From positions 434,001 to 498,000 of the forward strand of contig NZ_PYAU01000001.1 in NCBI RefSeq assembly GCF_003014675.1: DNA of 64,000 nucleotides, written 5' to 3'. The stretch is from Labedella gwakjiensis (GTDB taxonomy: Bacteria > Actinomycetota > Actinomycetes > Actinomycetales > Microbacteriaceae). The first letter of the stretch is position 1; each line of letters opens with the position of its first letter. The notes under the pieces were generated by a model. The model made no database searches and had not been told where the DNA came from. It saw only the letters and a program-made list of their open reading frames with translations. Positions 43,524 through 54,648 of the stretch are shown one piece after another. The position numbers and the translations under genes were made by a program.

Positions 43524-45080
<1,557 letters not shown>

Positions 45081-45165
45081 TGTGCGGAGAACTCCTCTGA
45101 CGGCTCCGTCCAGCTTATGGGACGTGCGCGAGTCGACTTGCGCGAGTCGTCCGACGCCGGTCGAC

Positions 45166-45483
45166 TCAGGCGACGTAGAAGGTGCGCGATCGACTCGCGT
45201 CGATTCCGTCGACCGTCGCGGCGATGGTGACTTTGACGGACCCGCTGTGGCCGCTATCGAGCGCGCCGCCCGTCTCCCCGTCGACGGTGCTCACGCGGAC
45301 GAGCTCCACGTGCGGCTCGCCCATGAGGGACGCCTGGCCGGCGGCGATGACGGCGTCGAGCCCGCCGTCAGCTGCAGAGGCCGCGGCCTCGAGAGCGTGG
45401 GTGAGGATGACGCGGTGACGCTCCGTCCGGGTGCGGGAGGCGGCTGTCGCCGCGAGGGCTGGGGTCGGGTCGGTGGTGCTCAT
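45166..45483 (-). CDS. Hypothetical protein
   Basis: A 105-residue protein with a Thr/Ala-rich N-terminus, a helix (RHRVILTHALEAAASAADGGLDAVIAAGQASL) and a C-terminal strand pair ending in a RTFYVA tail. No known domain. ATG 45483 is preceded by TACCAT six bases upstream (leaderless), supporting a real gene. It is divergent from the phosphopantetheinyl transferase gene; the two start codons are about 60 bases apart. Confidence 0.65.
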   Translation of the reverse strand: MSTTDPTPALAATAASRTRTERHRVILTHALEAAASAADGGLDAVIAAGQASLMGEPHVELVRVSTVDGETGGALDSGHSGSVKVTIAATVDGIDASRSRTFYVA

Positions 45484-45541
45484 TCCCTGATGGTAGTCGT
45501 CGCGCACCTCCCCCTCGTGCGGTGCATGGCACGATGTGGAG

Positions 45542-46180
45542 GTGGATCGGGACTGCACAGCGAGCAGCGCGCGGGACATCACCGCTCGTTTCGACGCAGA
45601 CGCCCCCTTCGTCGTGCTGCTCCGTCACTCCGGAGATGCGCTCCGCTCAGCCGAGGAACGGCGCGCCGACGGACGGCGGCTCGTCATCGAGGCGGCGGCG
45701 GCCCTTCTCGGCATCGATCCGTCCGAGGTCACGGTCACCGCTCGCTGCGCTCACTGCGGCGGCGATCATGGGCGCCCGCTCGTCTCGATCGACGGGCGGC
45801 CGGGTGCGCTCGACGCGAGCGTCTCGCACGCCGACGGGGCGACCGTCGCCGCCGTCGCCGATCGTGTCGTGGGAATCGACCTCGAACCGATCGCCGGCGG
45901 TTCCGACCGGTTCGTGGCGATCCGCGCCGTGTCCGGACCGTGGGCGGCCGAGGTCGCAGACGGCGCTGACGCGCTCAGGGCGTGGACGACGGTCGAGGCC
46001 GTCGTCAAGGCCGACGGCCGTGGCCTCGAGATCGACCCGCGTCGCGTCCGTCTCGCGGGACGGCCGGGCGAGCTCGGAACGACGGCGTCGATCGATGGCG
46101 CCGGTCCGCTCTACGCGGTGTCCTCCGCCGTCGTCGACGGATGTGTCGTCACGCTCGCACTCGGCGATGCCGTGGGGTAG
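45542..46180 (+). CDS. 4'-phosphopantetheinyl transferase (Sfp type)
   Basis: A 212-residue transferase that would attach the CoA-derived phosphopantetheine arm to carrier-protein serines. The magnesium-binding motif GIDLEPI (about residue 115) and the second signature WTTVEAVVKADGRGL (about 150) match the G-I/V-D-x-E and W-x-x-x-EA-x-x-K patterns of Sfp-type enzymes. Two cysteine pairs (CAHCGG) lie near residue 75. GTG 45542 has CACGAT six bases upstream; GTG 45536 is an alternative. Its tail overlaps the convergent M1 peptidase gene by 70 bases. The obvious substrate is the carrier domain of the synthetase encoded 1.3 kb away. Confidence 0.88.
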   Translation: MDRDCTASSARDITARFDADAPFVVLLRHSGDALRSAEERRADGRRLVIEAAAALLGIDPSEVTVTARCAHCGGDHGRPLVSIDGRPGALDASVSHADGATVAAVADRVVGIDLEPIAGGSDRFVAIRAVSGPWAAEVADGADALRAWTTVEAVVKADGRGLEIDPRRVRLAGRPGELGTTASIDGAGPLYAVSSAVVDGCVVTLALGDAVG

Positions 46181-47508
46181 GGCGGCAGCGCCGTCGCGTC
46201 GAGCCAGGCATCGAGGAGGCGGTCGAGCGCCACGACCGCGACGCCGGGAACGGCGGAGCACGCACGGGATACGAGGTCGCGGAAGTCCGCCGTCGTCACG
46301 ACGTCGTGACGGTGTTCGCCCACCCACCGGCGCACGATGTCGAAGAACAGCTCGTCCCCCACAGCGAGTCGTAGGGCGTGGAGCGTCAACGCGCCCCTCT
46401 TGTAGACACGGTCGTCGAACATGTCGCGGGCGCCCGGGTCGCTCAAGACGATGTCGGACGCCGAACCCGCCAGCCGGGCGTAGTGCTCGCGCGCGAGCAC
46501 GTCGGCCGACGCGCCTCCCGAGGCCTCCGACCACACCCATTCGGCGTAGCAGGCGAAGCCCTCATTGAGCCAGATGTGCCGCCACTCGGCCACACCCACG
46601 GCGTTGCCGAACCACTGGTGGGCGAGTTCGTGGGCGACGAGTCGCTCCCACTCCCCCGTCCCCGTGAGGTGGTTCGAGCCGAAGATGGCGAGGGACTGCG
46701 CCTCGAGCGGGATCTCCAGAACGTCCTCCGTCACGACGACGGCGTATCCCGTGAAGGGGTACGGACCGAAGGCCCGCTGGAAGACCGCCATCATCCGCGG
46801 CACGTCGACGAGATCGGCCAGCACGCTGCGGCGGATCGACGCGGGGAACACGATGCGTCCGGGAACACCGTCCCAGTCGGCCTCCACCACCGAGTATCGG
46901 CCGATCTGAACGGTGGCCAGGTAGGTCGCCGTCGGTTCGTCCTGCTCGAAGAGCCACGTCGCACGGCCGGAGCGCACGGTGCGGCTCACGAGGCGACCGT
47001 TGCAGACCACCGTGTACGGCGCCTCCGTGGTCAGCTGGATGGAGTACGTCGCCTTGTCGGACGGCACGTCGTTGCAGGGGAACCACGTCGACGCGCCGCT
47101 CGGCTGCGACGCGACGATGACACCGTCGGCGAGCTCCTCCCACCCGACGGGACCCCATGTGCTCGATCGCGGGCGCGGTGCGCCGGCGTATTCGATCGTG
47201 ACGCGGAAACGCGTCCCCGCCTCGATGAGGCGCTGCGGTGTCACCGTGAGCTTGTGCGCCGACTGGCTGTGGTTCGCCGCACGCGCGCCGTCGATGCGCA
47301 CGGCGGACGCGGACAGCCGCGACAGGTCGAGGGTGAAGCGCGCGAGGTCCGACGTGGCGAGCACGTCGAGTCGCGCGATACCGCTCAGTCGGTTGGTGGC
47401 GAGCCTGTAGTCGAGCTCGAGCTCGTAGCGCTCGACGGTGAGCCCTGCGTTCCCGTTCTTCGGGACGTACGGGTCGGATCCTGCGGGCGTCGTCTTCCCC
47501 GTGATCAT
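46111..47508 (-). CDS. M1-family zinc metallopeptidase
   Basis: A 465-residue aminopeptidase-type enzyme. The zinc site is HELAH (His293, Glu294, His297) with Glu316 as third ligand, in the HExxH-x18-E spacing of family M1. The exopeptidase GxMEN motif is replaced by EIPLEAQS. It is shorter than PepN (about 860) and lacks the C-terminal ERAP-like domain. No signal peptide is seen. ATG 47508 overlaps the stop of the Pls-like synthetase gene by four bases (ATGA), implying coupled translation. In epsilon-poly-lysine producers the polymer-degrading enzymes are M1-type zinc peptidases, so a role in trimming the synthetase product is attractive. Confidence 0.9.
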   Translation of the reverse strand: MITGKTTPAGSDPYVPKNGNAGLTVERYELELDYRLATNRLSGIARLDVLATSDLARFTLDLSRLSASAVRIDGARAANHSQSAHKLTVTPQRLIEAGTRFRVTIEYAGAPRPRSSTWGPVGWEELADGVIVASQPSGASTWFPCNDVPSDKATYSIQLTTEAPYTVVCNGRLVSRTVRSGRATWLFEQDEPTATYLATVQIGRYSVVEADWDGVPGRIVFPASIRRSVLADLVDVPRMMAVFQRAFGPYPFTGYAVVVTEDVLEIPLEAQSLAIFGSNHLTGTGEWERLVAHELAHQWFGNAVGVAEWRHIWLNEGFACYAEWVWSEASGGASADVLAREHYARLAGSASDIVLSDPGARDMFDDRVYKRGALTLHALRLAVGDELFFDIVRRWVGEHRHDVVTTADFRDLVSRACSAVPGVAVVALDRLLDAWLDATALPPYPTASPSASVTTHPSTTAEDTA

Positions 47509-50500
47509 CGGGTCGCCGGCGCCGCGTGGTAGTCGCCGACCACGACGTCGCGCCACGGTCCGATCGGGTTCCCGCTCCAGCGTCCGCCGTCCGGAACCGT
47601 CTCTCCCCGCATGACGAGCGACGACGGCCCGATCGTCGAGTGATCTCCCACGATCGCGGCGGGGAGCGCCACGCTGTGGGGTCCGAGCGTGGCTCCGGCA
47701 CCGAGGGTCACATGGTCCATGCTCATGATTCGATCATGGAACAGGTGCGTTTGCACGACGCATCCCCTGTTGACGGTCGATCCGTCGCCGAGTGTGACGA
47801 GGTCGGCCTCCGGCAACCAGTAGCTCTCGCACCACACTCCGCGGCCGATCCGCGCACCGAGGGAACGGAGCCAGGTGACGAGCGCCGGCGTTCCAGCCGC
47901 TCCGTTCGCGAACCAGGGGGCCGCTGCCATCTCCGTGAAGGTGTCGGCGAGCTCGCTCCGCCAGATGAACGACGACCACAGGGGGTGCTCACCCGCGCGG
48001 ATCCGGCCGACGAGGGTCCACTTCGCGGCACTCGTCAGGGCGGCGGCCACGGCTCCGGCCGCGATCATGACGGCGCCGCCGAGCACGAGGGCCGGGACGA
48101 GGCCGATCATCTCGATCAGGAGAGCCAGCGTCCAGAGCACGAGCAGCCCGATGGCCACCGTCGCGATCACCGGCACGATACGCGCCAGCTCCCAGAAGGC
48201 TCGAGCCGCCCGGAGCCGCGCCGGCGGCGAGAAGGTCAGCGCGTCGTCGACGTCTGCCGGTGTGCGTCGGAGACGCACCGTCGGCGATCCGAGCCAGGAC
48301 GAGCCTGCCTTCGACTTGCGGGGAGCGACGGACAGCACGGCGACGAGGCTGTCGCGGTGGATCCGCCGGCCGCCGGCCACCATGCCCGAGTTGCCGAGGA
48401 AGGATCGGCGACCGATCTCGACCCGACCGATGCTCACGTACCCGCCGCCCAGCTCGTACGAGGCCACGAGGGTGTCGTCCGCGAGGAACGCGCCGTCTCT
48501 GATCGTCGTCATGCGAGGGATGAGCAGGACGGTCGACGCTTCGACATCGCGGCCGACCTCCGCTCCGAGCAGACGCAGCCACACGGGGGTGAAGAGGCTC
48601 GAGTACAGCGGGAAGAGGATCGTGCGGGAGAGGTCGAGAAGCCGCTCCGTCGCCCAGACCTGCCAGCCCTGACGGCTCCGCACCGGATACACGCCCTCCG
48701 AGAGCCCGAGACCGAGCGCTCGGGTGACCAGGACGATGAGGGTCGCGAGGACGAGTCCGGCCACGATGGTCGCGGGAACCACGAGGAGCAGGGCGCGGAG
48801 CCCCGCCTCGGCGATCGACGATGCTCCGTCGATCGCGGGGAGGAGGACGGCTCCCCCGGCCACGAGCGCGACGGACGGGAGGAGGGCGAGGAGCGAGCTC
48901 GACGTCGCATACACCCACCACCAGCCACGGCCGCGCGGAGGGGGCGACTCGGGCCACCATCGCCGTGCGCGTCCCACGCGGACGGCGGGCGATCCCGCCC
49001 ACCGCTGGCCGGCCCGAACGCGGCCGAACACGGCGGACGCCGGCTCGATCTGGGCGTCGCGACCGATCCGGGTGCCGGGGAGCAGCGCGCTCCGCGCTCC
49101 GATGACACTCCCGGCGCCGATGCGCACGGCCCCGACGCGGAGGATGTCGCCGTCGATCCAGTAGCCCGAGAGATCGACCTCGGGCTCCACCGAAGCTCCC
49201 TCCCCGATCGTCAGCATGCCCGTGAGGGGAGGCAGGGAGTGAAGGGTCACGTCTCGCGCGATGCGGGCTCCGAGGAGCCGTCCATACGCGACGACGAACG
49301 GAGCGCCCGACAGTCCGACGCCTCCGAGGGCGTGCGCGATCGCCTCGGTCGTCCAGATCCGGCGATGCACCGACCCTCCGCGCGGATAGTCTCCCGGCCG
49401 GACGCCGGCGAGGAGCGTCCGCGCGGCCAGCACCGTGAGCAGCATCCGTCCGATCGGTGTGACGAAGAGGATCACGAGGACCGCCACGACCCAGGTGTCG
49501 GCGCGCGGGAGAGGGCCGGCCAGCCCGAGGCGTCCCAGCACCCAGCCGATCGCGAGGAGGGCGGAGAGCCAGCGCGCCGCGGCGAGCGACGCGACGGGCA
49601 GGCTCACAACGGTCTGGAAGACGCCCATCGCCCGCGGCGTCGGTTCCACGCGGTGGAAGTCGGTGGGACGCCCGCGTCCGCGGTCCTCGTCGTCGCGTTC
49701 GTCGAGAGCCTCGGCCATGGCGCCGAGCCGAGGCAGGGCGTAGACGTCGGCGACGGTGAACTCCGGGTCGCGCGAGCGCACGCGCGTCACGAGCTGTGCC
49801 GCGGCGAGCGACCCGCCTCCGAGGTCGAAGAAATTGGCCTCGGCCGAGGGGACGGGCACGCCGAGCACGGCCGTCCAGTCCTGGGCGAGCAGGCGCATCC
49901 CCTCGGGAAGCGCGTCCGATGCGGCCTCCTCGACGGGGAGCGGCCAGGGCAGCGCGGCCTTGTCGACCTTGCCGGAGGTGCGGGTCGGCAGCTCATCGAC
50001 GAGCGCGAGCACGGGGACGAGGGCGGCGGGGAGTTCGGCCCGAAGCGAGGCGATCGCCGCCGCGCGGTCGAAGGCAGAGCGGTCCGGAACGGCCAGATAA
50101 CCGACGAGCACGGGAGAGCCTGAGGAGGAGGAACGGACGGCCGCAGCGGCCCCTGCGACTCCGGGCAGCGACTGGAGCGACGCCTCGATCTCTCCGAGCT
50201 CGATGCGTCGACCGCCGACCTTCACCTGGTCGTCGACGCGCCCCTGGAACACGAGTCCCTCGACCTCGAAGCGCACGAGGTCTCCGCTCCGGTAGGCGCG
50301 ATCCCAACCGAGGGTCGGAGCCGGTGCGTACTTCTCGGCGTCCTTCGCCGCGTCGAGGTAGCGCCCGAGGCCGACTCCGCCGATCACGAGTTCGCCCACC
50401 TCGCCCTCGACGACGCGGTTGCCGTCGGCGTCCACGACGGCGAGGTCCCAGCCGTCGAGGGGCAGACCGATGCGCACCGGACCCGGGCCTCCGAGGGGCG

Positions 50501-51521
50501 CGGCGCACGCGACGACCGTCGCCTCCGTCGGGCCGTAGGTGTTCCAGACCTCGCGCCCGTCGACGGCGAGCCTCTCCGCGAGTTCGGGCGGGCACGCTTC
50601 GCCGCCGAAGATGAGCAGCCGCACGTTCTCGAGTGACTCTGCCGGCCACAGCGCGGCGAGCGTCGGAACGGTCGAGACGATCGTCACGCCGCGCGCGACG
50701 AGCCAGGGTCCGAGGTCCACGCCGCTGCGCACGAGCGAGCGGGGCGCGGGCACGAGGCAGGCGCCGTGCGCCCACGCGAGCCACATCTCCTCGCACGAGG
50801 CGTCGAACGCGACCGAGAGTCCCGCGAGCACGCGGTCGTCCGGTCCGATCGGCTCCTCGGAGAGGAAGATGCGGGCCTCCGCGTCGACGAAGGCCGCGGC
50901 CGAGCGGTGGCTCACCGCGACGCCCTTCGGCACTCCCGTCGATCCTGAGGTGAAGATGATCCACGCGTCGTCGGACGGACGCGGAGGCGCCACGACGGCG
51001 AGCGCCGCCGTGTCGGTGACGGGGTGGTCGTCGACCGGCAGGACCTCCGGCGTCTCCATGCCGTCGGCGCGCCCTGCTGCCCGCGGGACGAAGACTCCCT
51101 CTCCCTCGAGGATGCCGACGACGTCGGCCTCGCCGAACACGAGGGTCGCGCGCTCCTCCGGGTCGTCCGCGTCGACGGGAACGTACGCTGCCCCGGCCAC
51201 GAGGACGCCGAGGATCGCGATGTACAGCTGTCGCCGGCCCGACTGCATGCGGATCCCGACTCGGTCTCCGCGGCGGACGCCGGCATCCGAGAGCACCGCG
51301 GCGACGCGGATCGCGTGCGCGAGCAGCTCGCGGTAGCTCAGGGAGACGGCGCCGTCGTCGAGTGCCGACGCGTCGGGGAACCGGGCGGCCGAGTCGCGCA
51401 GGATGTCGACGAGCGTCCGCGGGTCGGGGGCGAGGGCGGCACGTGACAGAGCGGCGAGCTGTGCGGAGGATGGATCCGTACCCGGTACCGACGGGCCGGG
51501 CGATGACGGTTCAGACGTCAC
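47505..51521 (-). CDS. Pls/PosA-type single-module non-ribosomal peptide synthetase
   Basis: A 1338-residue membrane-embedded NRPS-like enzyme. The adenylation domain (about 30-510) has the P-loop TSGSTGVPKG, NTYGPTEAT, YRSGDLV, GRVDDQVKVGGRRIE and the A10 lysine in TSGKVDKAAL. The carrier domain has its phosphopantetheine Ser571 in DLGGGSLAAAQ. The remaining 700 residues carry membrane helices interleaved with hexapeptide/left-handed-helix acyltransferase-like repeats (TIGEGASVE, GDGSTVNRGC, IGDHSTIGP), the NRPS terminal-domain type seen in Pls. Streptomyces Pls has the same order and about 1319 residues. Expected product: an isopeptide-linked homopolymer, probably of a basic amino acid. GTG 51521 overlaps the upstream gene by 11 bases; the M1 peptidase gene follows with an ATGA overlap. 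Confidence 0.87.
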   Translation of the reverse strand: MTSEPSSPGPSVPGTDPSSAQLAALSRAALAPDPRTLVDILRDSAARFPDASALDDGAVSLSYRELLAHAIRVAAVLSDAGVRRGDRVGIRMQSGRRQLYIAILGVLVAGAAYVPVDADDPEERATLVFGEADVVGILEGEGVFVPRAAGRADGMETPEVLPVDDHPVTDTAALAVVAPPRPSDDAWIIFTSGSTGVPKGVAVSHRSAAAFVDAEARIFLSEEPIGPDDRVLAGLSVAFDASCEEMWLAWAHGACLVPAPRSLVRSGVDLGPWLVARGVTIVSTVPTLAALWPAESLENVRLLIFGGEACPPELAERLAVDGREVWNTYGPTEATVVACAAPLGGPGPVRIGLPLDGWDLAVVDADGNRVVEGEVGELVIGGVGLGRYLDAAKDAEKYAPAPTLGWDRAYRSGDLVRFEVEGLVFQGRVDDQVKVGGRRIELGEIEASLQSLPGVAGAAAAVRSSSSGSPVLVGYLAVPDRSAFDRAAAIASLRAELPAALVPVLALVDELPTRTSGKVDKAALPWPLPVEEAASDALPEGMRLLAQDWTAVLGVPVPSAEANFFDLGGGSLAAAQLVTRVRSRDPEFTVADVYALPRLGAMAEALDERDDEDRGRGRPTDFHRVEPTPRAMGVFQTVVSLPVASLAAARWLSALLAIGWVLGRLGLAGPLPRADTWVVAVLVILFVTPIGRMLLTVLAARTLLAGVRPGDYPRGGSVHRRIWTTEAIAHALGGVGLSGAPFVVAYGRLLGARIARDVTLHSLPPLTGMLTIGEGASVEPEVDLSGYWIDGDILRVGAVRIGAGSVIGARSALLPGTRIGRDAQIEPASAVFGRVRAGQRWAGSPAVRVGRARRWWPESPPPRGRGWWWVYATSSSLLALLPSVALVAGGAVLLPAIDGASSIAEAGLRALLLVVPATIVAGLVLATLIVLVTRALGLGLSEGVYPVRSRQGWQVWATERLLDLSRTILFPLYSSLFTPVWLRLLGAEVGRDVEASTVLLIPRMTTIRDGAFLADDTLVASYELGGGYVSIGRVEIGRRSFLGNSGMVAGGRRIHRDSLVAVLSVAPRKSKAGSSWLGSPTVRLRRTPADVDDALTFSPPARLRAARAFWELARIVPVIATVAIGLLVLWTLALLIEMIGLVPALVLGGAVMIAAGAVAAALTSAAKWTLVGRIRAGEHPLWSSFIWRSELADTFTEMAAAPWFANGAAGTPALVTWLRSLGARIGRGVWCESYWLPEADLVTLGDGSTVNRGCVVQTHLFHDRIMSMDHVTLGAGATLGPHSVALPAAIVGDHSTIGPSSLVMRGETVPDGGRWSGNPIGPWRDVVVGDYHAAPATR

Positions 51522-52176
51522 GCGGGGCCTCGGGGAAGAGGTCCAGGAGTTCTTGCTTCCGCTTGCGCGACAGGGAGGTGAATCCGCGCGACCGGGCGAA
51601 GGATCGCAGGCGGGCGACCGTCCACGTCGCGTTGGGCACCGGACCGGTCGGGGCGGTCGCCTCCGCGAGGGACTCGACGGCAGCCTCCGTCACGGCGAGG
51701 CGGCGCGCCCTCTCGGCCGCTGCACGCGCGACGGCGGCGGCCTCCTCGCGTGCCGCCTTCTCGGCGCGAGCCCGCTCGGCCTTCTCGCGTGCCTTCCGCT
51801 CCGCTTTCTCGGCCTTCGCCCTCTGCTTGGCCTTCTTCTCGGCCTTCTCGGCCTTCGCGCGCTCCTTGGCCTTCTTCTCGGCCTTCTCAGCCTTCGCGCG
51901 CTCCTCGGCCTTCTTCTCGGCCTTCGCAGCCTTCGCCTTCTCCTTGGCCTTCCGCTCGGCCTTCTCAGCCTTCGCGCGCTCCTCGGCCTTCGTGGCGGCC
52001 TTCGCAGCCTTCGCCTTCTCCTTGGCCTTGCGCGCTGCCTTCTCCAAGCGGTCGTCCTCGGCGGCGGCCCGCTCGGCCTCGGCGATCACCGCTCGTGTGA
52101 CGGCTTTGCGCTCCGCCTTGTCCTCGGCGGTCTTCTTCTTCGTCGATGTCTTCGCGGACGCGTCGTTCTTCGCCAT
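51511..52176 (-). CDS. Lysine/alanine-rich protein with C-terminal SAP/Rho-N-like domain
   Basis: A 221-residue protein. Residues about 40-140 are a highly repetitive Lys/Ala/Glu helix built from KAEKAE-RKAKEKA units, reminiscent of histone H1-like proteins. The last 40 residues (WTVARLRSFARSRGF...SRKRKQELLDLF) match the SAP or Rho-N helix-extended-helix that binds nucleic acid. ATG 52176 follows GAGGGAG. The 3' end overlaps the Pls-like synthetase start by 11 bases, so the proteins are co-translated. A DNA- or RNA-binding role is inferred from composition; why it is tied to the synthetase is unknown. Confidence 0.75.
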   Translation of the reverse strand: MAKNDASAKTSTKKKTAEDKAERKAVTRAVIAEAERAAAEDDRLEKAARKAKEKAKAAKAATKAEERAKAEKAERKAKEKAKAAKAEKKAEERAKAEKAEKKAKERAKAEKAEKKAKQRAKAEKAERKAREKAERARAEKAAREEAAAVARAAAERARRLAVTEAAVESLAEATAPTGPVPNATWTVARLRSFARSRGFTSLSRKRKQELLDLFPEAPRDV

Positions 52177-52288
52177 CCGTCTCCCTCTCGGTCAGGGCAT
52201 CGATCGGCGTCGGGATGAGGCGCGACCGTCCTGCCGGTCGGGGGCAGGTGGCCACACGATATCGAGGGAAGGTAAACGGGAGGTTCCG

Positions 52289-53017
52289 TCAGTCGAACGG
52301 ACCGGCCCCGTCGATCTCCGGGGCGATCGATGCGGAACCGGGCGAGGCGAGCGCGTTGTCGACCGCACTCCGCACGAGGGACGACAGGTACGCGCCGGGG
52401 TTGTCCACGCCGATGGTCGCGAGGATCGCGCTCGACTGCGCGACGATCGACCGGGAGAACTCCGTCGCCGTGGCGATCGCCTCGGCGTAGGCAGGACGGT
52501 CGTCCTCGGCCACAACCACGGGCTCCGCCCCCATCTCCATGACGAGCGCCTGTGCGATCGGGAGGACGGGTGACGGAGCGGTCACGGCGAAGTAGCTCTC
52601 GCGCAGCCTCGCGAGATCGAGGGACGTGCCCGTGAATGCGATGGCGGGGTGCAGGGCGAGGGGGATTGCCCCGGCGAGCTGGGCCGGTCGCAGCACATCG
52701 GTGCCGAACCGAGCGGAGGTGTGAGCCACGAGCTGGCCGGGCTGCCAGACACCGGCCGCTGCGAGCCCGGCCACGAGCGGCGCGATCTCCTCGTCGGGGA
52801 TCGCGATGATCACGAGTTCCGAGCGCTCCACGAGCTCCGGGATCGTCAGGATCGGGGCGCCGGGGAGGATCGTCTCCGCGCGTTCCCTGCTGTCCTCCGA
52901 GACCGCCGAGACTCCGACCACCGCGTGTCCGGCGCCGGCGAGCGCGGCGCCGAGAACCGGCCCGACGCGCCCGGCACCGAGCACGCCGACGCCGAGTCGT
53001 CCCGCACGCGCGTTCAT
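52289..53017 (-). CDS. Rossmann-like and DUF2520 protein
   Basis: A 242-residue oxidoreductase-like protein. An N-terminal dinucleotide-binding fold (GVLGAGRVGPVLGAAL, residues 11-26) with an AIPDEEIAPLVA segment is followed by the DUF2520 domain (about 130-240), which includes the LHPAIAFTG motif. The layout resembles short-chain NADP-dependent beta-hydroxyacid dehydrogenases. In many actinobacteria this gene precedes panC, but no panC is seen here. ATG 53017 overlaps the stop of the PH-domain gene (ATGA). Confidence 0.87.
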   Translation of the reverse strand: MNARAGRLGVGVLGAGRVGPVLGAALAGAGHAVVGVSAVSEDSRERAETILPGAPILTIPELVERSELVIIAIPDEEIAPLVAGLAAAGVWQPGQLVAHTSARFGTDVLRPAQLAGAIPLALHPAIAFTGTSLDLARLRESYFAVTAPSPVLPIAQALVMEMGAEPVVVAEDDRPAYAEAIATATEFSRSIVAQSSAILATIGVDNPGAYLSSLVRSAVDNALASPGSASIAPEIDGAGPFD

Positions 53018-54648
53018 CGTGTCTCCGATGCCCAGCGGTGGCTGTGGTCGTGCGCCGCCGCATCCACGGCCGCCGCCGAGGCGCGCTCGAAGAGCAACGC
53101 GGCCTCGTCCTTCGCGATGGTCGGGAGCACCGCCGACACGGGACCGATCACGGTGTGCACGCGAGCGGACGACAGGCGGAGCAGGCGCTCCACCGGTCCC
53201 TGCGAGATCTGCACGCTCTGGATGCGGGCGAGAGGAAGGATCACGAGTTTCCTCCAGAAGACACCGGTTCGGAAGACGAGGAGACTGGGGCGCAGCGCGT
53301 ATCCCGTCCGGCGCCACGCGATCGGATCGAGGATGCGCGCGCGCTTCGGCGCGAGAACGAATCCGCTCTCGCCCGGTCGCATCATCGCGGACTCGACCTG
53401 CTCATACGTCGAGTCCACGTCAGCGCCGTCGAGCATGAGCTGGACCACGGCTGTGGCGTCGCGCAGGGTCCCGACGGGGAGGATCGTGGTGTTGCCCTTC
53501 CCTCCCGCCGCGGCTTCGGCGGACAGACCGGCCTTGTTGATCTTCACCTGCCACCATCCGAAGGGTCGCCACAGCAGCGGCTGCGAGATCTGCACGGCGT
53601 GGACGCGTCCGGGTGGCAGCGTGTCGTTGCTGGTGGACAGCAGCCCGAAGCCGATCCGCACACCGCTCGGCGTGCCGGCGATCGAGTAGCGCAGCGACTT
53701 CGTGATGGCGGACCAGTAGTAGCTCACGATGCCGAGCAGAGCAGGGATGAGCGTGAAGATGACCCAGGTGTTCCCGTTCGAGATCATCACGATGCCGAAC
53801 ACGATCAGGGCGATCACGAACACCGTGCCCTCGTTCACCACGGTCGAGGCCACCAACCGGCCCACGGGGATGCGCACGATGGATTCGGGCGGAGCCTGGT
53901 CGTCCGGCAGCTCAGGCGACAGGAAGTCGTTGGCCGTCTCGACGACGTGTCGGGTGATCATTCCGTCGCCCGCCGCCACCGTTCCGGCGGGACCGGCGCC
54001 GGCGAGCGGCGCCTCCCCCTCGGCCAGTCGCGCGCCCGAGGCGAGCGTGAGAACGTCGCGGCGAAGCTTCTCGGCCGGCGTCGTCGACAGGTACTCGAGC
54101 TTCACGTCGGCGGACTGACCGGCCACGTTCACGTCGAGGCGGGCCGCGCCGAACAGGCGAGGGAGAAACGGCTTCGAGAGCCCGACGCCCTGGACCCGGT
54201 CGAGTTTCGCCTTGCGATGCGTGCGGAAGAGGATGCCGCTGCGCACCTCGACGGCCTCGTCCGTCACGCGGAAGCTGTGCATGCGCCACGAGAGGAAGAA
54301 CGCCCCGATGACGAGAAGGAGGAAGACGAGCAGCCCGAGGAGCACCCACCCGACGTAGCCGTGGTTGAGCGTGTAGGTGATCGGGTCGTAGTCCTCACCG
54401 TCGTAGCGGTAGTCCCCGGCGAACTGCGGCAGGAACATCTCCACGAGACGCTCGCGCAGGTTCGCGATGACGATGCCGAGGATCGCGATGAAGGCGATCC
54501 CGCCGCGCAGCAGCGGGGTCGCGGGATGGAGCCGGTGCCACTCGCCGTCGGCGAGGGTGCCGCCCGCGAGAACCCTCTCGCGCGCGATCCGCCCAGCCTC
54601 GGGGATCGGCTGATCGGGTGCTGGCTGCGGCGCTCCGGCGTCGCTCAT
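53014..54648 (-). CDS. PH domain (bPH2) membrane protein, YdbT-like
   Basis: A 544-residue membrane protein with repeated bacterial PH-like domains. Paired helices near 48-65 and 93-118, and again near 270-310, separate three bPH2 segments. Each has the SFRVTDEAVEVRSGILFRTHRKAKLDRVQGV-like pattern of a strand, a basic turn and a Q-x-V helix. YdbS/YdbT pairs occur widely in Firmicutes and Actinobacteria; function is unknown, although links to membrane-active toxins exist in Bacillus. ATG 54648 overlaps the stop of the upstream PH gene by four bases. Confidence 0.87.
   Translation of the reverse strand: MSDAGAPQPAPDQPIPEAGRIARERVLAGGTLADGEWHRLHPATPLLRGGIAFIAILGIVIANLRERLVEMFLPQFAGDYRYDGEDYDPITYTLNHGYVGWVLLGLLVFLLLVIGAFFLSWRMHSFRVTDEAVEVRSGILFRTHRKAKLDRVQGVGLSKPFLPRLFGAARLDVNVAGQSADVKLEYLSTTPAEKLRRDVLTLASGARLAEGEAPLAGAGPAGTVAAGDGMITRHVVETANDFLSPELPDDQAPPESIVRIPVGRLVASTVVNEGTVFVIALIVFGIVMISNGNTWVIFTLIPALLGIVSYYWSAITKSLRYSIAGTPSGVRIGFGLLSTSNDTLPPGRVHAVQISQPLLWRPFGWWQVKINKAGLSAEAAAGGKGNTTILPVGTLRDATAVVQLMLDGADVDSTYEQVESAMMRPGESGFVLAPKRARILDPIAWRRTGYALRPSLLVFRTGVFWRKLVILPLARIQSVQISQGPVERLLRLSSARVHTVIGPVSAVLPTIAKDEAALLFERASAAAVDAAAHDHSHRWASETR

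Follow-up and report, generated by a model that had tools for sequence, protein, structure and literature searches.

The window analysed here is a 64,000-nucleotide stretch of the genome of Labedella gwakjiensis (Microbacteriaceae; 3.84 Mb in one contig), and the subject is a four-gene locus within it, centred on pls, which encodes a large synthetase of the Pls/PosA family. Upstream of pls lies a gene for a lysine-rich protein, downstream one for an M1-family zinc peptidase and, convergent with the latter, one for a 4′-phosphopantetheinyl transferase (PPTase). A first-pass annotation made from the letters alone had proposed this gene set, the convergent PPTase and overlaps of four and 11 bases; all are borne out by the coordinates (Table 1), and both overlaps were verified on the sequence. 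The ATG of the peptidase gene overlaps the pls stop codon, with four bases (ATGA) common to both genes, the lysine-rich open reading frame (ORF) and pls share 11 bases, and the PPTase and peptidase genes overlap by 70 bases at their 3′ ends; the PPTase frame has a second in-frame GTG at 45542, where the earlier annotation had started it. Neither the arrangement nor the domain matches are due to chance, since the domains match curated models, the PPTase motifs are kept and selection on the lysine-rich ORF is purifying. Judged by family, adenylation pocket, gene order, overlaps, co-occurrence and conservation, the locus is, with high probability, a chromosomal module for epsilon-poly-L-lysine (eps-PL).

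Table 1. Positions in the window of the genes of the locus, the domains of Pls and the neighbouring lysS gene.
Feature	Position	Strand	Remarks
lysS	43524-45080		neighbour on one side of module
4′-phosphopantetheinyl transferase (PPTase)	45536-46180	+	convergent with M1 gene
M1-family zinc peptidase	46111-47508	-	465 aa, ATG at 47506-47508
pls, Pls/PosA-family synthetase	47505-51521	-	1338 aa, GTG start
Pls membrane/polymerisation region	47562-49622	-	residues 634-1320, three long-helix pairs, LbH modules C1-C3
Pls thiolation (carrier) domain	49704-49889	-	residues 545-606, LGGGS motif, PF00550 40.8 bits
Pls adenylation domain	49941-51422	-	residues about 34-527
Lys/Ala/Glu-rich protein	51511-52176	-	221 aa, 40 Lys, 39-nt internal repeats

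Synthetase family, adenylation pocket and polymerisation region

TIGR02353 (NRPS_term_dom) matched residues 634–1320 of Pls with 688.4 bits, against a curated cut-off of 423.1, and TIGR01733 matched the protein at 339 bits. Pfam searches at E up to 0.1 recovered AMP-binding (PF00501), PP-binding (PF00550) and Hexapep, with Hexapep_2 and AMP-binding_C below cut-off, and returned no condensation or thioesterase domain. A single adenylation (A) domain and a single thiolation (T) domain are followed by three copies of a unit made up of a predicted transmembrane helix pair and a left-handed beta-helix (LbH) acyltransferase-like module. Among solved structures the closest relative is 7wew, the epsilon-poly-L-lysine synthase A domain (601 bits), and the Pls-like reading proposed for the gene at first pass is upheld by these matches.

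The relatives compared are 140 loci, 60 from the family and 80 named ones, the latter being the best 80 of 558 relatives; removal of three duplicates (L110, L120 and L124, of L080, L051 and L077) leaves 137 distinct loci, 77 of them named. Ten pocket positions were set via motif anchors (residues 240, 241, 244, 283, 304, 306, 328, 336, 337 and 518), under the PheA numbering. They spell DAESIGTVVK, the same ten letters as in the 7wew row of an alignment read by eye, and the acidic lysine-recognition residue, E244, is present within FDASCEE. When the window was aligned with all 140 loci, duplicates included, DAESIGTVVK was found in 137/141 rows, DAESVGTVVK in two and DFECLSVVTK in two (L081 and L107). 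Lysine enzymes have Ala at pocket position 2, and Glu is conserved at position 3 (PMC10522769). The window pocket is a lysine code with Ala and Glu at these positions, which makes L-lysine the very probable monomer. The first-pass annotation had left the monomer unassigned, which the pocket now allows to be amended, and the comparison with characterised A domains that it had recommended comes out on the side of lysine.

The two rows with DFECLSVVTK are second Pls-family synthetases (L081, G072:C2:398000-411000; L107, G132:C2) with about 29–30% identity, and have Phe at position 2, like diaminopropionate/diaminobutyrate enzymes. No M1 match was found in the flank of either; a few kb before the second copy of G072, on its upstream side, there is a PPTase gene (C2:397413-397976). 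A further genome of the same genus, G183, also has two TIGR02353 matches over cut-off, and at the first G072 locus pls is the same as on a Planctomonas psychrotolerans contig.

An AF2 model of residues 612–1338, built with 62 sequences (pLDDT 90.5, pTM 0.90), shows three long-helix pairs and three runs of short strands of the kind seen in left-handed beta-helices, as does the PosA model in PMC10522769; a simple hydropathy scan of the predicted membrane region resolves five peaks against the six modelled transmembrane helices. Fold searches with the 727-residue model returned LbH acetyltransferases at Z up to 7.7 with poor TM-scores, and E. coli maltose acetyltransferase fitted the third module (Z 7.4, rmsd 3.1, 146 aligned residues). 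Mainly on the grounds of the Hexapep matches, sequence hits, model strands and PMC10522769, the C-terminal repeats are assigned as LbH (hexapeptide) acyltransferase-like modules. The “acyltransferase-repeat” description first given to this region thus stands as regards acyltransferase likeness, and its repeats can now be specified as LbH hexapeptide modules.

Conservation differs among the three modules. In column counts based on the window and 61 of 136 usable rows, with module register aligned by eye, E1238, H1259 and D1263 of module C3 were invariant in 62/62 rows, including two enzymes at 24% identity. At the position matching H1259, the first module had Tyr in 39 rows, His in 15, Trp in 7 and Ser in 1, and the second had Tyr in 60 and Ala in 2. 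In LbH acyltransferases a histidine serves as base, and the counts suggest, given the modelled modules, one active site per Pls polypeptide, in C3 with H1259. The idea of a single catalytic site may already have been tested in a 2013 study (Kito et al.), and is not counted here as new.

TIGR02353 exceeded its cut-off in 120/299 Microbacteriaceae genomes, four of these matches being partial (G077, G213, G244 and G279), and in 4/4 genomes of the window's genus. Only matches over the curated cut-off were counted because, at E up to 0.001, the model also matches 13/14 control genomes, in one of them over cut-off. Pls has earlier been reported for Microbacterium and other coryneforms (PMC8117764), and the core system of pls and M1 gene is already known, not a first for the group. 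Such patchy presence would suit a locus that is cryptic or being lost, as would one relative, G077, in which the pls match falls in two frames (C1:2188642-2190701; 460 and 262 bits), as if decaying or misassembled. We nevertheless think this unlikely for the window, where the frame is full-length, pls is under purifying selection within the genus (dN about 0.07–0.12, dS 0.70–0.82) and every genome of the genus retains the gene. The split pls of G077 still has a PPTase gene nearby (C1:2186761-2187267).

Peptidase and phosphopantetheinyl transferase partners

The M1 protein, scored on a longer ORF (46111-47556), matched PF01433 over cut-off at 96.2 bits and PF17900 at 57.5 bits. Its HExxH-18-E zinc site recurs in 137/138 M1 matches, three duplicates included. 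M1 enzymes usually have GAMEN where many pls-linked ones have EIPLEAQ or EIPLESQ; the window protein has EIPLEAQ, and one or other form is present in 93 of the 138 matches. At 134/137 distinct loci an M1 gene lies 3′ of pls on the same strand, with the zinc motif 0.5–3.5 kb past the pls end, so that co-location of the two genes, named at first pass as a test of the reading, is the rule among relatives. The three loci without it are those of the second-copy enzymes L081 and L107 and L134, on a contig of 6975 bases that ends soon after pls. In Streptomyces albulus, pls and pldII form an operon in which the two genes share 4 bp (PMC4361855), pldII is translationally coupled and its repression leads to longer polymer (PMC9223678), and a pls–peptidase operon occurs also in Corynebacterium (PMC8117764). 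The ATGA overlap in the window matches the published pls–pldII arrangement, in agreement with the grouping of peptidase and synthetase first proposed, and by gene arrangement and published description the M1 gene would play a PldII-like role.

The PPTase is of Sfp-like size. Sfp enzymes carry the motifs GxDxE and WxxxEAxxK, for which the window protein has GIDLE and WTTVEAVVK; in an alignment of the window with 36 of 83 PPTase loci, G98, D100, W135, E139 and K143 were invariant in all 37 rows, and PF01648 matched 31/37 at E up to 0.01 (best 1.4e-16). Among the 60 family loci the PPTase gene was convergent behind the M1 gene in 48, upstream in the same direction in 5 and not found in the flank in 7, and it was convergent in 30/77 distinct named loci. 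The link between PPTase and synthetase extends beyond position, and is stronger than the first-pass annotation could know: across 80 genomes, one per genus and counted by hand, a profile search found the PPTase in 28/28 genomes with pls and 6/52 without (Fisher p 4.6e-16, phylogeny ignored).

One might take the PPTase for a general enzyme that stands next to pls by coincidence, as six genomes without pls hold it and as in G010 pls (C1:894 kb) and PPTase (C1:1782 kb) are far apart. Against this, the PPTase was not found in 46/52 genomes without pls, and in five of the six exceptions (G017, G019, G020, G022 and G058) another PF00550 carrier, in G020 a 104-residue frame, is encoded at most some 10 kb from the PPTase, a placement that would fit a PPTase following its client; the sixth, G080, has one carrier in all and none beside the PPTase. 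Moreover, 19/28 genomes with pls have only two PF00550 carriers by hand count. Those of the window genome are Pls and a stand-alone protein of 103 residues, presumably the fatty-acid acyl carrier protein (ACP), and its two PF01648 matches are a separate AcpS-like frame of 128 residues and, below cut-off, the window PPTase. An incidental position is therefore improbable, and the neighbouring PPTase is best read, from these patterns, as a dedicated Pls activator. Our literature search, which covered few subscription papers, found no report of a PPTase linked to pls; in their available parts, PMC4361855, PMC8949500 and PMC4668381 mention PPTases or the arm in general terms only.

The lysine-rich neighbour and the flanks

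Against three same-genus relatives the lysine-rich ORF has a dN/dS of about 0.23–0.26, a figure that is uncertain mid-alignment owing to repeats, and the number of internal repeats varies within the genus; on this measure the ORF encodes a real protein under purifying selection. Its C-terminal tail aligns with the tails of similar pls-adjacent proteins at 24 other loci, and of the 25 aligned tails 21 match Rho_N and 12 match SAP at E up to 0.01. The window tail scored 18.5 bits against Rho_N (PF07498), and 17.2 in another scan, below the cut-off of 24.9, and is hence called Rho_N/SAP-like only; that of L089 exceeded the cut-off (27.6 bits). Two loci, L140 and L142, were excluded as false Rho_N matches (E 0.004–0.009, 1% Lys), and L075 (E 0.0096) was left out of the tail alignment and kept in the test of Lys content described below.

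Adjacency to pls, counted by hand and judged by coordinates, was seen in at least 25/120 genomes with pls, spanning 11 genera, 21 of the genes running in the same direction as pls and four divergently. Specificity of the family for pls was considered and rejected, related tails being present in 215/299 genomes with or without pls; the flanks of 20 non-adjacent members gave no pls, M1 or PPTase match. The lysine-rich gene is therefore a recurrent partner of pls and not a defining part of the locus. As to the four-gene set envisaged at first pass, its pls–M1 core is widely kept, whereas all four genes together are kept in no more than part of the family. The type of tail points to nucleic acids, and we would guess at a nucleic-acid-binding or regulatory role; searches of the literature found no report of a lysine-rich gene beside pls, nor of Pls with Rho termination factor.

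With 40 Lys codons in 222 (stop included) and a direct 11-base overlap with pls, the ORF might instead act as a sensor of lysine supply, stalling on Lys codons uncoupling pls translation. Such a leader was rejected on the grounds of equal Lys content beside pls and elsewhere (median fraction 0.158, n = 25, and 0.160, n = 20; Mann-Whitney p 0.53); four of the at least 25 pls-adjacent genes, moreover, are on the opposite strand and the tail shows the conservation of a protein domain, and we regard lysine sensing as very improbable.

Three loci (L059, L085 and L109) have another type of small protein, with a start like MSKKIDAALKALVKALEKHAD, directly upstream of pls in place of the Rho_N-tailed one. 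Elsewhere in the window genome, L189 (G000:C1:3088869) encodes a protein, presumably ChaB-like, whose C terminus is a Rho_N domain, and adjoins a presumably primase-like gene; it is the sole Rho_N match there besides an 836-residue frame and the pls neighbour.

On one side the module is bordered by lysS and on the other by a Rossmann-like/DUF2520 gene and PH-domain genes (Pfam). The lysS and PH genes are kept beside pls in three same-genus relatives (L048–L050), and a meaningful lysS adjacency was rejected, the 3/140 loci with lysS in the flank all belonging to the window's genus. An ORF located between the lysS and PPTase genes (45166-45582, minus strand, 138 aa) has 61–80% identity in the three relatives and no NCBIfam or Pfam match. 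Clustering of flanking ORFs, many of which are antisense or lineage-specific, gave no further family in more than 15 loci; a first tblastn table lacked composition correction, and its DUF2520 (shortened query), PH and lysine-rich matches outside the genus are unreliable. A role in anti-phage defence was rejected, there being no PADLOC match among five proteins. No structured RNA reached gathering score in 44000–54000, and promoter and terminator signals in 44900–52800 were not above those of shuffles.

The putative epsilon-poly-L-lysine pathway and its alternatives

The proposed pathway would begin with the PPTase, turning the Pls carrier domain into its holo form, whereupon the A domain would activate L-lysine as the adenylate and load it on the carrier. 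By analogy with characterised Pls, the membrane-bound LbH pseudo-trimer on six helices would link lysines via the epsilon-amino group, perhaps at one site in C3 that includes H1259. Like S. albulus PldII, the M1 peptidase, translationally coupled to pls, would trim or degrade the polymer, perhaps also protecting the cell. In this genus pls and the lysine-rich gene upstream of it are probably translated together.

Several points tell against this pathway or parts of it. The window PPTase scored 18.5 bits against PF01648, for which the cut-off is 25. At 47/77 named distinct loci, mostly Mycobacteriales, no PPTase of the window type was found in the flank, where one too distant for the profile could escape the search; three of these loci (L112, L113 and L129) are Micrococcales, and the PPTase–pls link is a Micrococcales trait, not one of Pls at large. 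The co-occurrence statistics ignore phylogeny, as stated, and the His at the H1259-matching position of the first module in 15/62 rows sits poorly with a single site. Finally, Corynebacterium variabile has a functional pls yet no detectable eps-PL, the polymer being obtained with its pls only when S. coelicolor was the host and the S. albulus pls promoter was used (PMC8117764); given this precedent, the window locus may likewise be silent.

It is highly improbable that the polymer is built from a diamino acid other than L-lysine (ornithine, diaminobutyrate, diaminopropionate or beta-lysine). The Pls/PosA family does include such enzymes (PMC10522769) and the pocket of second-copy relatives L081 and L107 differs, but all ten letters of the window code are those found in the eps-PL A domain. 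At position 2, where the window has Ala, PosA has Met (Met218), PDAP/PDAB synthetases have Phe and the beta-lysine synthetase has Gly (PMC10522769). Both dat and ask are present at loci for diaminobutyrate (DAB) polymers (PMC8117764), while no precursor genes were found among the ORFs examined at 43–58 kb of the window, the part of the genome searched for them.

The eps-PL module resembles S. albulus Pls with PldII in domain architecture, lysine pocket, downstream peptidase and 4-bp overlap (PMC4361855, PMC9223678, PMC8117764), and differs in its convergent PPTase and in its upstream lysine-rich gene with a Rho_N/SAP-like tail. C. variabile Pls is likewise actinobacterial and encoded in an operon with a peptidase, with heterologous eps-PL demonstrated, but belongs to another order, and PPTase and lysine-rich neighbours are not described in the available part of PMC8117764. 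PosA, the delta-poly-L-ornithine synthetase of Acinetobacter baumannii, shares the family and the modelled LbH pseudo-trimer on six helices, whereas its pocket, DMEHNGTVSK, is for ornithine and its operon consists of a single gene (PMC10522769). The lysine-rich protein has the C-terminal helix-loop-helix tail of Rho_N (PF07498)/SAP (PF02037)-tailed lysine-rich proteins, with a score that, unlike that of L089, is below the Rho_N cut-off.

The PPTase partnership and the lysine-rich neighbour look new. It is possible, if doubtful as a whole, that Micrococcales have a self-licensed eps-PL module, in which the PPTase is kept mainly for Pls and gained or lost together with it, the lysine-rich protein, co-translated in several genera, has a regulating or buffering function, and polymerisation occurs at a single site, only C3 keeping an invariant histidine (H1259). 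Commercially, eps-PL is a food preservative produced with S. albulus (PMC8117764), and expression in other hosts could be easier with a compact module that brings its own PPTase than with pls alone. For the organisms themselves, the co-occurrence offers a reason for a second PPTase, most of the examined genomes with pls having no other non-ACP carrier, and predicts the outcome of deleting either pls or the PPTase gene; the lysine-rich neighbour is a concrete candidate gene for the control of eps-PL production.

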